A program made the translations under genes and the position numbers. From Ruminococcus sp. (GTDB lineage: Bacteria > Bacillota > Clostridia > Oscillospirales > Ruminococcaceae): a stretch of DNA of 64,000 nucleotides. The stretch lies in the NCBI RefSeq assembly GCF_017549005.1, contig NZ_JAFYYT010000003.1:159990-223989 (forward strand), given 5' to 3'. The notes beneath the pieces are model-generated. The model was not told the origin of the DNA and made no database searches. It was given only the letters and a program-made list of their open reading frames with translations. Positions 52,656 through 57,940 of the stretch are shown here, piece by piece. Every line of letters begins with the position of its first letter. Within the stretch, counting starts at the first letter, position 1.

Positions 52656-52991
52656 ATGCCGAGGAAAACTAAAGCGTATACGGACTTTGACTGCGTGAAT
52701 GCAGTCGGTACTCTTATTGCTCCTGGCAGCATAATATCTCACTTCAACAAGCTGTTTGATGCAAACGGTCTTCCGCATATAAAGTTCCATGCACTCCGTC
52801 ATTCTTGCATAAGTTTCCATGCTAACGATAATAGCTTCTCGATGAAGCAGATACAGGACTATGCAGGACATGTAGACTTCCTTACAACATTCAATGTCTA
52901 AAGTCATGCTGATGATTCATCTAAAAAGACTGAGATGGACTTCATTACCAGCTGTTTCACTGAGCTTTTTGACAGCAGCAACGAAGAATAA
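52656..52991 (+). pseudogene. Tyrosine-recombinase (integrase) C-terminal remnant with stop at the catalytic Tyr
   Basis: The frame reads ISHFNKLFDANGLPHIKFHA, LRHS and QIQDYAGHVDFLTTFNV, which are the integrase box with the HxLRHS motif and the GH pair. TAA at 52899-52901 then falls where intact integrases have the nucleophilic Tyr (NVYSHA becomes NV-stop-SHA). The same frame continues after it (SHADDSSKKTEMDFITS) to TAA 52989. The N-terminal two-thirds of the enzyme is missing. It marks the former end of an integrated element. A hairpin follows. Confidence 0.8.
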
Positions 52992-53291: not shown

Positions 53292-53320
53292 TTGCCAAAT
53301 GCCTGAATATAGTGTATAAT
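53292..53320 (+). promoter_or_regulatory. Promoter of the multi-EF-hand dockerin protein
   Basis: TTGCCA and TATAAT with 17-base spacing, 50 bases before the start codon. Confidence 0.65.
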
Positions 53321-53369
53321 GAAAAAAGTTCCGTGCATGCCAAAACATAATCAAAGGAGTGATATCATT

Positions 53370-55724
53370 ATGAAAAAAATCATGTCTTTTGCAGCGGCTA
53401 TGCTGACTGCGGCAGCAGCCATGCCCTGCATACCCAAAGCAGATATTGAACTGAATGTTAAGAACAAACCTCATCTCACATACCTACATTCTCTGGAAGT
53501 CGAACAGAAGACTGTGCGGTATATCACTGAGAATAACCTTGATATCGACTTCAACTCAGACGGAAAGTTCGATCATCTTGACTGCTATCTCCTTGATCGA
53601 TATAACGACTATCCCGGCTCCCATGACTATCTGCCGGAGGATATCAGGACAAAGATAGCTGCCAATGCCGATCTTGACGGTAACGGAAAAGTAGATGAAA
53701 AATTGGAAATTATTTGCCATTTTCTCCTATACTGTGATATTGATACATCTTATTTTGCACAGTCAACATATGAAGCATATGATGATGAGCTGGGCATTCG
53801 TCACGGTCCAAGCTATAACAGTAACAATTTCAGCATAAATTTTATAGATACACTTAATAACAGGACAATATATCTTGGCGTACATTATCTTTTCCTGCAA
53901 AAGATGATCGAGGAGGGAAAAGTCGATCCTGATGTCAATAATGACGGTAAGTTTGACATATCCGATGTTCTGGATTTTGAAATAGCCACAACTTCCGAGC
54001 CGTGGATAGGCATACAGGATCCTGATACGGGCATATGGTCATATAAATGTTCTCCCGATAAGAAAATAGAGCTTGATGATGAGATAAAGGCAAGGGCAAA
54101 GGCAATAACGTTGGAGCAGAGTAATTACGGATTCATACAGGATTATGATACTTCGGCACTTCTTGACTGCCTTTTCATGACAGAACCTGTTCTTCCCGAA
54201 TATTCAGATAACATATACTATGAAAAGTTCCATGAGGGAGCGCAGTATTACTATATAGGCGATTATGTCAAGGCTTATCTTGAATACAGTAAAGATGAAA
54301 GTATTTCTGTGCCGTCACTGGATGAAATTGAAAAGCAGGCAAGTGAAAAGGAAAAACTTCAAAAGCAGTTCTTCGATGATATAGAATCAGGAAAAATACC
54401 TGCTCCTGACCTTAATTTTGACAATAAAATAGACGGAAGAGACCTGCATATTGCCGACCTCTTTCACGGTGACAGGTTATACGGCAGAACAGCTGAGGAA
54501 AGCAAGCTTACAAAGGAAGAATATGATAATCTGGATCAAAACTGCGATTACAACAATAATGGCATAAGCGGTGATGACGATGATCTGGAATTGATCAGTA
54601 CCTACATTCTTAATTCTGTCATTGAAAGAACAAATGCAATGGCAACTGACAGTACAGGTGAATTTTACAAGGAATATGCAGATGCGCTTTTCGCAAAGGA
54701 AATGGATCCGGATAATAATATTGATGTATTTGCTCCTTTCCGTCTTTATGATGATAAATACGAAAATTTTGTATTTCCGACTTTAGAAGATCATTATAAA
54801 AACTATTTGGCAGGAGTTGCATCAAAGATGAAATCTGCGCCTGACATTGACGGAAACGGAACAGTCGATGAACTTGATAAAATGTATGCAGAGTCATATG
54901 TAACTTACCTTCAAACCGGGAAAATGGGAGATACTGAGATACCTGACGATGTTCTTGAAAGAATAAAGAACGAATGCGATTTCACAAGTGACGGCAACAG
55001 CGGTCTGTTGTATGATATGCAGGTTGCTGCGCTCTATATCGACAGAGTAGTGCTCAAAAAGAGTGATCAGGGTACTGAGGAGACCTCTTCGCAGCCGGAT
55101 CCGGAGCTTACAGAAAAGCTTTCAGGTGATACAAACTGCGATGGCGAGATAAATATGGCAGATGCAGTACTTATCATGCAGGCTCTTGCAAATCCCAATA
55201 AATACGGAATAAACGGTACAGACGAGAATCACCTTACCGAACAGGGCAAACTCAACGGTGATATGAACGGCGACGGACTTACTGTCGGCGACGCACAGGC
55301 GATACAGTATAAACTGCTTGGTATCAAGGAAGAAAAAAGTGAAGTTAAACCTGAATTGAGTGATATCGTATCAATCAAGACAAGATATAATCCTGTAATG
55401 AGCGACTGGTCGGGACTTGGCATACTGCTTGAAATTGATCCTCCTGGATATCCTGTTACACTGACAGCTAACGCCGGTTACTTTGCAGACTGTTATCTCA
55501 ACAGTGAAAGTGAAGCTGTTATTGTTTCCGGAAATACCTGCGATATAAAAAACTGCGGCTATGTATTATGGTCGCCCGATGATCAGTGTTATCAGAACGA
55601 CTGTTATATCGAGATACTGGTTGAGGGAACAGAAGGTGACAAGCGTATCCAGCTTGGGAAAATATACATTTATGAGACAGCAGGACTCGGTTTTAGTGCT
55701 ACGCTTGAAAAGGGAGCGATTTGA
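53370..55724 (+). CDS. Secreted protein with about nine EF-hand/dockerin-like loops and one canonical dockerin
   Basis: This 784-residue protein has a signal peptide (1 to about 25). It then carries a series of calcium-loop-like segments: DIDFNSDGKFDHLD (about 57), DLDGNGKVDEKL (101), DPDVNNDGKFDISD (186), DLNFDNKIDGRD (347), DYNNNGISGDDDD (393), DIDGNGTVDELD (492) and DFTSDGNSG (537). The canonical dockerin follows, with DTNCDGEINMAD (587) and DMNGDGLTVGD (631). The early loops fall in pairs 40-45 residues apart, the same period as dockerin repeats, so the protein looks like four degenerate dockerin-like units plus one standard dockerin. A beta-rich domain of about 130 residues ends it. No catalytic motif is recognised. 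The start at 53370 has AAAGGAG. It lies in a dockerin-rich locus. Confidence 0.85.
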   Translation: MKKIMSFAAAMLTAAAAMPCIPKADIELNVKNKPHLTYLHSLEVEQKTVRYITENNLDIDFNSDGKFDHLDCYLLDRYNDYPGSHDYLPEDIRTKIAANADLDGNGKVDEKLEIICHFLLYCDIDTSYFAQSTYEAYDDELGIRHGPSYNSNNFSINFIDTLNNRTIYLGVHYLFLQKMIEEGKVDPDVNNDGKFDISDVLDFEIATTSEPWIGIQDPDTGIWSYKCSPDKKIELDDEIKARAKAITLEQSNYGFIQDYDTSALLDCLFMTEPVLPEYSDNIYYEKFHEGAQYYYIGDYVKAYLEYSKDESISVPSLDEIEKQASEKEKLQKQFFDDIESGKIPAPDLNFDNKIDGRDLHIADLFHGDRLYGRTAEESKLTKEEYDNLDQNCDYNNNGISGDDDDLELISTYILNSVIERTNAMATDSTGEFYKEYADALFAKEMDPDNNIDVFAPFRLYDDKYENFVFPTLEDHYKNYLAGVASKMKSAPDIDGNGTVDELDKMYAESYVTYLQTGKMGDTEIPDDVLERIKNECDFTSDGNSGLLYDMQVAALYIDRVVLKKSDQGTEETSSQPDPELTEKLSGDTNCDGEINMADAVLIMQALANPNKYGINGTDENHLTEQGKLNGDMNGDGLTVGDAQAIQYKLLGIKEEKSEVKPELSDIVSIKTRYNPVMSDWSGLGILLEIDPPGYPVTLTANAGYFADCYLNSESEAVIVSGNTCDIKNCGYVLWSPDDQCYQNDCYIEILVEGTEGDKRIQLGKIYIYETAGLGFSATLEKGAI

Positions 55725-55773: not shown

Positions 55774-56838
55774 TTAAGTCTTTATGTATTCCTCTAAAGG
55801 CATTATATCATCTTTAGCTGTAGAGAGATATGCATAGTAGGAAAGTATTTTCGATGCGTCAACAGCGTCTATGAAGCCGTCGTGATTTACATCAGCGGCA
55901 AGCTTCTGACCTGCTGTAAAGGTACTGAACCGGGCAGATGAGACTATTGCGTAATATTCAAGAACAGATGAAGCGTCCACTGCATTTATGAGACCGTCGT
56001 TGTTGACGTCACCAAGCTTATATTCGGGATTGGGAACAGGAGGCGCTGTTGTCACAGCAGTGGTGGTTGTTGTTTTAGTTGAAGTAGTAGTTGAGGTGGT
56101 CGTTGTCGTAGTTTGCTTCTCGCCGTTGATCTTGAGGTAGCCGTTATATATGCCCTTTGTGAAAACGTAGGTCATCTGAAGTCTTCCCGCCTCGTCCTGC
56201 TGCGAATTGATAAACATATCTGGTACTATACCGTCATCAACGTACGAAATACCGATGGGATAGACATCACCCTGTTCTGCATCTTCGGGAATTATAAAGT
56301 CAATGGTGAATAAACTGGCGTTATCCAGCAGGATATTCTCATCTGAATATGCATAAAACGCCAGCTGACCTTCCTCCACCATTGAAGAACCTGTTGTGAA
56401 GCTTTTTACAGCTTTGCCGGAATTAACGAATTCACCGTTTGAGTTTTCTTTGACGGTAAGTCTGGTATCATAAAAAATGTGGAACTTAATCAGGCTTACA
56501 GGCTCGGTTGCTCCTCTCACACTGAAGTATACACGCTGCACCTTGCCGTTGGCATAGCCGGCATCAAATCCTATCTTGTCAAAAAAGAGCATAATACCGC
56601 CATTATAATCCTTAGGTCTTATGGTCGGGACATTCCATTTCACAGGCTGTACCCAGCGTGAACCGTCGTAGGGGACTTCCATATCGTCCTGCTTGTTGCA
56701 CGGATTGTAGGAACTATCATAAGAGGTGACTGCCGATACAGCAGCAGATGGAGCTGAGGCTGTAGCTGCTGCGGGAAGCGTATAACATGAAACTGACAGC
56801 AGCACAGAAGCGGCAATCATGATCCTTTTTAGTTTCAT
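55774..56838 (-). CDS. Cohesin-like domain plus dockerin protein (adaptor-scaffoldin layout)
   Basis: This 354-residue secreted protein has a signal peptide (1 to about 28), a polar region, a cohesin-like domain (about 82-245), a Thr-rich linker (about 247-270) and a C-terminal dockerin (about 276-354). The cohesin-like part shows VQRVYFSVRGATEPVSLIKF, IFYDTRL (the YD signature), EEGQLAFYAYSDENILLDN, FTIDFIIPEDAEQGDVYPI and a closing GYLKING strand. The dockerin has two canonical loops (DVNNDGLINAVD, DVNHDGFIDAVD). A cohesin plus a dockerin is the design of the R. flavefaciens adaptor ScaC. Whether this divergent cohesin binds a dockerin is untested. AAAGGAG precedes ATG 56838. Confidence 0.8.
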   Translation of the reverse strand: MKLKRIMIAASVLLSVSCYTLPAAATASAPSAAVSAVTSYDSSYNPCNKQDDMEVPYDGSRWVQPVKWNVPTIRPKDYNGGIMLFFDKIGFDAGYANGKVQRVYFSVRGATEPVSLIKFHIFYDTRLTVKENSNGEFVNSGKAVKSFTTGSSMVEEGQLAFYAYSDENILLDNASLFTIDFIIPEDAEQGDVYPIGISYVDDGIVPDMFINSQQDEAGRLQMTYVFTKGIYNGYLKINGEKQTTTTTTSTTTSTKTTTTTAVTTAPPVPNPEYKLGDVNNDGLINAVDASSVLEYYAIVSSARFSTFTAGQKLAADVNHDGFIDAVDASKILSYYAYLSTAKDDIMPLEEYIKT

Positions 56839-57012
56839 ATCTAAACTCCTTTGCATAAATCATAAACGAAGTGTTTTATGAACATTATATCACATGAATC
56901 GGAAAATATCAAGAAATAAGGTTCTCTTTGCGGTATATATTCAAAAAAAGGGCCGTTGTGTTGTTGTTCTTGGTGAAGTCATAGTGCCTGCAAGAGGAGG
57001 TATACATAAAGC

Positions 57013-57055: not shown

Positions 57056-57940
57056 TTACTTCTTCATGTATTCTTCCATTGATATCGGAGCTTCTTTTGT
57101 AGTAGAGGAGTAAGCGTAGTAAGCAAGTATATTAGATGCATCAACAGCATTGATCATTTTGTCATGATTAACATCAGCTGAAAGCTTCTGATCTTCAGTG
57201 TATTCGCCGATTTGATTCGTAGAAATACGGGCATAATATGCAAGTACCTTTGAAGCGTCTACTGCGTTAATATATCCGTCAGCGTTTACATCTCCAAGTG
57301 TTTCAATTTCTATAGTTTCGATTTTGCTGCCAGGAGCAGGACCGTGACGGAAAGTTATTCCGCTGTAAACAAGAGGATTCTGCTCAGTCCACACAGATAT
57401 GAGCTGATACAATCTTACAATTGCATCCTCATCAGTAATAGAAGGATCTATCTCAACATCTATTGATGCGAGTTTTACGTAAATATCCTTAGCATTACCG
57501 TCAGCATCGATTTCAGACTTTTTATAGAATGCAAAATCATTATTTTCAGCATTGATTCTGTAATATTTTTCTGGCATATTCAGTTCTGATGTGATCTTCT
57601 CAAAGTCATAATCATAATAGTTTTTACTTTTCATATCACTTGAATTTTCGCTTTCAAGCAGATCGGTCACGCCTTTGAGCATATAGTCTTTTGGCATAAC
57701 TGCTACCCATTTTCCGCGTCTGATTTCGAGTATTGATTTAGCTGATTCTTTGCTTATATATGTCAGATCATTCTTTGAACAATACTGCTCAAGTTCATTT
57801 TCCTCTAAAGCATATAGTTCCTCAAATGTCATTGATCCTGATGAAGCAGCAGCCGATATTGGTGATTTGACGGAAAGTATGGCTGTTCCAAACGGAAGCA
57901 TTGCACACATCAAAGCTGCTATTATTCTTTTACAATTCAT
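57056..57940 (-). CDS. Secreted dockerin protein of unknown function
   Basis: This 294-residue protein has a signal peptide (1 to about 32) and a helical/beta N-terminal region of about 180 residues without recognised catalytic motif. A C-terminal dockerin (about 216-294) with loops DVNADGYINAVD and DVNHDKMINAVD follows. In the second loop Lys-Met replaces Gly-x. The dockerin belongs to the same group as that at 55774 and the remnant at 52458. AGGAGG precedes ATG 57940. The HhH gene ends 14 bases upstream, so the two are likely one operon driven from 58209-58237. Confidence 0.85.
   Translation of the reverse strand: MNCKRIIAALMCAMLPFGTAILSVKSPISAAASSGSMTFEELYALEENELEQYCSKNDLTYISKESAKSILEIRRGKWVAVMPKDYMLKGVTDLLESENSSDMKSKNYYDYDFEKITSELNMPEKYYRINAENNDFAFYKKSEIDADGNAKDIYVKLASIDVEIDPSITDEDAIVRLYQLISVWTEQNPLVYSGITFRHGPAPGSKIETIEIETLGDVNADGYINAVDASKVLAYYARISTNQIGEYTEDQKLSADVNHDKMINAVDASNILAYYAYSSTTKEAPISMEEYMKK

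Follow-up and report, generated by a model that had tools for sequence, protein, structure and literature searches.

Regulation of the cellulosome parts of ruminococci in the rumen is yet to be understood, as stated in PMC4081043. Among described systems, the RsgI anti-sigma-I factors of Clostridium thermocellum and Acetivibrio are membrane-spanning proteins of anti-sigma type with an extracellular part that occur in cellulosome producers (PMC3413522 and PMC11557425), and the long relatives reported here share these traits. The described components closest to the gene studied here are the type I dockerins of Ruminococcus flavefaciens group 1 (5m2s and 5m2o) and the cohesin-dockerin adaptor scaffoldins of the ScaH and ScaE types. 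Here, we analyzed a gene for a secreted dockerin protein in a 64,000-nucleotide stretch of DNA from a Ruminococcus sp. (referred to as the window) together with its relatives in other genomes. We favor the view, with somewhat better than even confidence, that the window protein is a stand-alone secreted version of an ectodomain that is otherwise tethered as an anti-sigma-type protein, with two products proposed for the tethered genes.

The window gene, its calcium loops and its dockerin

The longest open reading frame for the window protein begins at 53319 and overlaps the −10-like TATAAT of a promoter identified by its resemblance to the consensus. The start codon is therefore likelier to be the one at 53370, which is preceded by a Shine-Dalgarno (SD) sequence that was read by eye (Table 1). 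A stretch resembling this promoter was also seen by eye 5' of the nearest relative, L076. By eye, no ECF-like motif was seen upstream of 53370, and neither a sigma gene nor an anti-sigma N-terminus was found upstream of this start.

Table 1. Coordinates of the features of the window gene and its neighbors
Feature	Position	Strand	Remark
Promoter, sigma-70-like, TTGCCA-17-TATAAT	53292..53320	+	Likely for stand-alone copy; by eye, consensus resemblance
Shine-Dalgarno sequence AAAGGAG	53353..53359	+	Duplex energy −9.3 kcal/mol to the anti-SD
EF-loop/dockerin protein, short family form	53370..55724	+	784 aa, secreted; stop codon included
Signal peptide, ~residues 1-24	53370..53441	+	K-K, then hydrophobic stretch; cleavage site approximate
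EF1 (60-71) and EF2 (101-113), dockerin-like pair	53547..53708	+	Dockerin_1 27.9 bits, cut-off 22.9
EF3 (188-199), single loop	53931..53966	+	By eye, alignment and model
EF4 (347-358) and EF5 (393-405)	54408..54584	+	EF5 of NGxSGD type; no Dockerin_1 match
EF6 (492-503) and EF7 (537-549), extra pair	54843..55016	+	Dockerin_1 13.8 bits, below cut-off
Dockerin, residues 585-652	55122..55325	+	Loops 587-598 and 631-641; Dockerin_1
C-terminal tail, residues 652-784	55323..55721	+	Modeled mostly as strands, low confidence
Secreted cohesin and dockerin protein	55774..56856	-	Convergent neighbor of window gene
Secreted dockerin protein	57056..57940	-	Pfam Dockerin_1 E 9.4e-9

A sequence-only reading of this gene had described about seven calcium loops ahead of a dockerin in a 784-residue secreted protein without a catalytic domain, and both the count and the segments proved right. 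Dockerin_1 matched the protein in four stretches (E 1.5e-12), and no other domain, catalytic domains included, scored above the Pfam cut-off. The seven EF-type loops were chosen by eye; the three pairs proposed at a spacing of 40-45 residues measured 41, 46 and 45 residues, and one loop is single. A regular expression for the loops gave 6 matches in residues 26-570; when the residues of this segment were shuffled 2,000 times, the average was 0.081 matches and no shuffle gave more than 2. Among 24 aligned relatives, whose columns average 23% identity, all eight invariant columns (D30, G35, D41, D158, G163, D169, D317 and D328, corresponding to window residues 60, 65, 71, 188, 193, 199, 347 and 358) map inside the EF1, EF3 and EF4 loops. 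The EF6-EF7 pair is found in the clade of the window protein and in some other family members.

In the predicted structure (model residue = window residue minus 24), all seven loops are flanked by two helices, and their blocks have a mean pLDDT of 76-92 in a model of middling confidence that was built from a 7-sequence alignment (overall mean pLDDT 69.3, pTM 0.47). With dockerin-spaced pairs whose loops lie between helices, the model does not show the loops scattered over an unrelated fold, the outcome that would have spoken against the sequence-only reading. A calcium-stabilized rod formed by the EF pairs is plausible on this model, and the loop sequences suggest that they bind calcium.

To what extent the EF pairs count as dockerins differed from pair to pair. 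Using Pfam, EF1-2 by itself cleared the Dockerin_1 cut-off and was the only one of the three pairs to do so, EF4-5 having no match and EF6-7 a score below the cut-off (Table 1); the three pairs are therefore not all recognized as Dockerin_1 dockerins. In profile comparisons, EF4-5 matched EF1-2 (96.7%, E 3.3e-10), while the matches to the true dockerins of the family were 35.8% (E 3.8e-4) for EF1-2 and 2.6% (E 0.018) for EF4-5. When the entire EF region was used as a profile, solved dockerins were found through EF1-2 (4fl4_A, E 4.6e-8) and calmodulins more weakly. In a fold search, the dockerin rows covered the terminal dockerin alone, and the EF part was barely probed, with no row there. The invariant Asp and Gly residues of three loops together with the profile scores support a constraint on the loops to act as calcium sites, with a likeness to dockerins that fades outside them. 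Dockerin-like units, as first proposed, are thus borne out in spacing, in the modeled helices and in the Dockerin_1 match of EF1-2, but not for EF4-5 and EF6-7 as Dockerin_1 domains. The accompanying suggestion that several units engage cohesins found no support, given the unmatched EF4-5, the sub-cut-off EF6-7 and the weak profile match of EF4-5 to dockerins.

Residues 585-652 contain two calcium-loop repeats and match Dockerin_1, as defines a type I dockerin, and are nearest by sequence to 5m2s (E 9.9e-22) and 5m2o (E 4.8e-14). The dockerin is expected to plug into a scaffoldin cohesin. A tail of ~130 aa, absent from the earlier reading, lies behind it, and the dockerin is accordingly not C-terminal. 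Large ORFs in three genomes (G034, G461 and G457) end in sequences that share 85-93% identity with the dockerin and 83-87% with the tail; the one large ORF scanned, L176, encodes a GH9 enzyme with a dockerin (Pfam). The tail is common to the GH9-type ORFs L175, L176 and L177 of other genomes and absent from the orthologs of the window gene itself. We interpret these data as an apparent exchange of the gene end between the window gene and GH9-type dockerin ORFs. Because L076 has no tail and yet has a dockerin 87% identical to that of the window protein, the evidence for this exchange comes from the tail. Another ortholog, L014 (EF part 56%), terminates in a different dockerin, 39% to that of the window protein, suggesting that the dockerin is exchangeable between orthologs.

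The convergent neighbor of the window gene encodes a ScaE-type cohesin and a ScaH-like dockerin. Using phmmer, its product matched the cell-wall anchoring protein chains 8ajy_A (E 2.9e-16) and 4iu2_A (E 3.3e-16), ScaE (2zf9_A, E 1.3e-12) and the ScaH dockerin (8ajy_B, E 3.6e-16). A cohesin 71% identical to that of this neighbor sits upstream of the sigma gene of the relative L072.

Long relatives, their sigma genes and their internal start

The layout of the window protein had been taken as undescribed, but the search of Ruminococcus genomes suggested alongside that reading gave relatives, and the layout is not unique to this protein. In a first search, 18 of 60 genomes had matches, the window's own genome included, all within its genus. 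A profile of the EF region (A1) matched 58 of 125 genomes of the genus at E up to 1e-20, again including the window's own, and across 398 phylum-wide genomes matched in the window's own genome alone; copy numbers are lower bounds, with up to 13 (genus) or 4 (phylum) candidates scored per genome. Among the named hosts, R. flavefaciens UBA1190 and ND2009 each have two loci; the others are two Ruminococcus sp. In the window's own genome, 73 places match the window protein, mostly through the dockerin alone, and three paralogs (L009, L010 and L011) match the EF region.

To the earlier loci we added 60 further places taken from among the genus matches listed. The resulting 122 matching ORFs were reduced to 100 without repeats and, after removal of three cut by the edge of the retrieved stretch (L069, L084 and one of L100), to 97, of which 79 are long and 18 short, L082 being assigned by eye to the long and L116 to the short forms. 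By a rough regular expression, 90 of the 100 ORFs have a dockerin-like repeat close to their end; by eye, the 10 misses comprise 6 with a dockerin, 2 cut at the edge of their stretch (L059 and one of L112) and 2 without a dockerin (L124 and L134). The last two are long, keep their EF units and are also without a strong internal ribosome-binding site.

The 79 long forms comprise, in one frame, an N-terminus with a predicted cytosolic stretch and a membrane helix, a Ser/Thr-rich linker, a signal peptide and the EF region, in most cases followed by a dockerin. In the linker, taken as the 110 residues that lead up to the internal signal peptide, Ser and Thr together average 33%, against 11% for the EF part; this signal peptide mostly starts with Met-Lys-Lys or similar. 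A hydropathy peak of at least 1.4 was present in the N-terminus of 77 of 79 long forms in the pre-curation set, the exceptions (L024 and L032) being cut at the start. Because the fused form has a second hydrophobic stretch, its topology is uncertain.

Using tblastn with three sigma queries (E up to 1e-3, up to 1,800 nt upstream), we detected an ECF-type sigma gene ahead of 73 of the 74 long members whose available upstream sequence was 400 nt or longer; only L099 gave no match. The 18 short members gave 0 such matches. Three of the sigma proteins were scanned with Pfam and each matched Sigma70_r2 and region 4; two were scanned with NCBIfam and both passed as sigma70-ECF. The first start of the long genes, before the membrane helix, has a strong SD sequence in 70 of the 73 sigma-linked members. 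In the regions upstream of the sigma genes (63 members printed), we saw by eye, and without statistics, recurrent motifs that resemble ECF promoters, such as TGCGACA/CGTATAA, CTAAGATAA/CGTCTAATA, CTTCGACA/CGACTAATAAG and TGCACATC/CGTCAATCAT. The pattern before the L010 sigma gene occurs a single time in its own genome, before the L010 operon itself, which argues against a broad cellulosome regulon and fits a self-contained operon. Based on these data, the best reading of the long relatives is that they are anti-sigma proteins with the EF-dockerin block as ectodomain; the anti-sigma-like membrane N-terminus in 79 of the 97 ORFs favors an ectodomain over a scaffold. By eye, three of the EF loci have another sigma-like gene nearby, again accompanied by a gene for a membrane protein (L010, 1014-3609; L011, 1565-3315; and L074, 968-3699).

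The start of the internal signal peptide is preceded by an SD sequence with a duplex energy at or below −9 kcal/mol in 65 of the 79 long genes, and after clustering in 62 of 75 (90% identity), 54 of 62 (70%) and 35 of 42 (50%). Synonymous recoding of the seven codons before the internal start (300 draws) gave a mean of 9.0 and a maximum of 18 such genes. Other in-frame start codons reached this energy in 19 of 1,777 cases, counted in 75 long ORFs of the pre-curation set, L116 included. The peptide encoded by the internal SD sequence varies (ERS, EGS, RRV and EEV), and the L075 start is GTG. The excess over the synonymous null and the retention of the SD sequence with differing peptides indicate that selection acts on the nucleotides, and on these sequence comparisons we conclude that the internal ribosome-binding site of the long forms is under nucleotide-level selection. 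A strong SD sequence is missing in 14 of the 79 long members, L010 of the window's own genome among them, and two products are therefore not universal; on the tree of the family, this trait changes 6 times. An A-x-A cleavage motif was found in 2 of the 14 members without a strong SD sequence versus 33 of the 65 with it, and a relaxed cleavage motif in 7 of 14 versus 63 of 65. With kinship counted, the link between the loss of the SD sequence and the loss of A-x-A was not significant (median p 0.625).

Ten sigma genes of the L010 type (E below 1e-48) are present in the window's own genome, two of them directly ahead of fused members (L010 and L011). At the remaining eight loci (L156, two in L157, L158, L159, L160, L161 and L162), a separate secreted protein follows. 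A dockerin is supported at six of these eight, by Pfam above the cut-off (both L157 loci, L159 and L162) or in the search with the window protein (L160, L161 and both L157 loci); the dockerin of the L156 protein was seen by eye alone, Pfam reporting none, and no dockerin protein was seen at L158 among the ORFs read. The secreted partners include two serpins (L157 and L160), a GH11 xylanase with a CBM and a GDSL lipase (L161), and an esterase with a CBM (L162). The membrane protein behind the sigma gene matches the profile of the long-form N-terminus at seven of the eight loci (E 1.3e-6 or better), and the ORF at this position in L162 does not match that profile. Comparison of the eight loci supports that the usual plan is a sigma gene, a membrane protein and a secreted dockerin protein. 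Genes two and three of this plan form a single reading frame in the EF family, and this frame keeps the start signals of the third gene.

Three sigma classes were assigned from start motifs, and a tree of 66 classed members requires 11 or more changes between them; the EF-dockerin block is therefore joined to more than one anti-sigma type. The short forms are divided between two clades that lie among the long forms. One clade unites the window copy with five further short members (SH-aLRT 96) and is joined next by the long member L015 (100), which has a sigma gene. Most likely, the window lineage lost its sigma and anchor parts, a loss that we infer from a tree that is unrooted and quick. A short ORF upstream of the window gene (52656-52901), which by eye we take to resemble the end of a tyrosine recombinase, is possibly the scar of the event that removed these parts.

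A proposed mechanism and its rivals

The fusion, the sigma linkage and the selection for the internal start can be read from the sequences, and the remainder of our explanation is inferred from them. In our proposal, the window protein would be a chain of calcium-loaded EF-hand pairs that docks into a scaffoldin cohesin via its dockerin, and each long gene would give rise to a tethered and a free product. The tethered form would hold the sigma factor and read the outside, while the free form would dock in the cellulosome; cohesin occupancy or the calcium state would alter the release of the sigma factor, which, once released, would drive its own operon. The window copy would be transcribed from its housekeeping-type promoter. 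A more specific and more tentative version, which we rate at about one chance in three, is that the family comprises genus-specific sensors of cellulosome occupancy, in which tethered and free copies from a two-start ECF-linked gene compete for cohesins and stand-alone copies such as that of the window tune this competition. If true, this competition would tell the cell how full its scaffoldins are.

Three other explanations bear on parts of this proposal. The window protein might be a structural or substrate-binding rod stiffened by calcium and without signaling, the fusion merely coupling expression and the internal signal peptide being cut to give one free ectodomain. This explanation, which we consider about half as probable as our main proposal, is in agreement with the other sigma loci of the window's own genome, where the secreted dockerin protein is separate from the membrane protein, with the large retention of the signal peptide within the long forms, and with a window copy that has a housekeeping-type promoter and no sigma gene. 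However, it leaves without a clear reason the persistence of a stop-free fusion in 73 of 73 sigma-linked members across three sigma classes. That the internal ribosome-binding site is an unused relic of gene fusion is improbable: the unfused operons do show a possible origin for it, and 14 of the 79 long members have lost the strong SD sequence, but its retention in 35 of 42 clusters at 50% identity is far above the synonymous expectation and it changed only 6 times on the tree.

We give an equally low probability to a multivalent connector, in which each EF pair would be a cohesin-engaging dockerin and the protein would cross-link scaffoldins. The Dockerin_1 match of EF1-2, the solved dockerins found by the EF-region profile (4fl4_A), the helix-loop-helix modeled at every loop and the adjoining cohesin-dockerin gene fit such a role; the failure of EF4-5 and EF6-7 to reach the Dockerin_1 cut-off, the 2.6% match of EF4-5 to true dockerins and the retention of EF units without a dockerin in L124 and L134 speak against it. 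We therefore retain the reading of the window protein as a freed ectodomain. With a membrane anchor, calcium-loop pairs, a dockerin and ECF-type sigma control in one family, the assembled cellulosome would be linked physically and directly to transcription, and the window family may belong to how these bacteria sense their fiber-digesting machinery. The conserved internal start offers a clean experimental handle.

Comparison with known systems

In the open-licence literature, including PMC11557425, PMC12484212, PMC3413522, PMC2930009, PMC4081043, PMC5301203 and PMC3573020, we found no description of dockerin-bearing anti-sigma proteins or of ECF-controlled dockerin genes in Ruminococcus. The main text of the paper on R. 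flavefaciens FD-1 dockerin proteins of unknown function has no word beginning with "sigma".

Compared with the group 1 type I dockerins of R. flavefaciens, the window dockerin differs in having seven loops before it and a tail after it. The adaptor scaffoldins combine a cohesin with a dockerin, and the convergent neighbor of the window gene likewise carries both modules, whereas the window protein has no cohesin match by Pfam. Two polypeptides from one frame with a common stop codon have likewise been proposed for phage endolysins (PMC9430671); the long forms differ in that they are cellular genes and in that both proposed products would enter the export path. We also considered the long relatives as RsgI proteins and rejected this assignment: Pfam reports no RsgI domain in the N-termini of L010 and L071 or in L072 and L074, and the sigma partners score as ECF type and not SigI. 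The ectodomain differs as well, consisting of EF pairs and a dockerin in the long relatives and of a CBM or GH in RsgI. The RsgI proteins of other cellulosome bacteria nevertheless have a role comparable to that proposed here for the long relatives.
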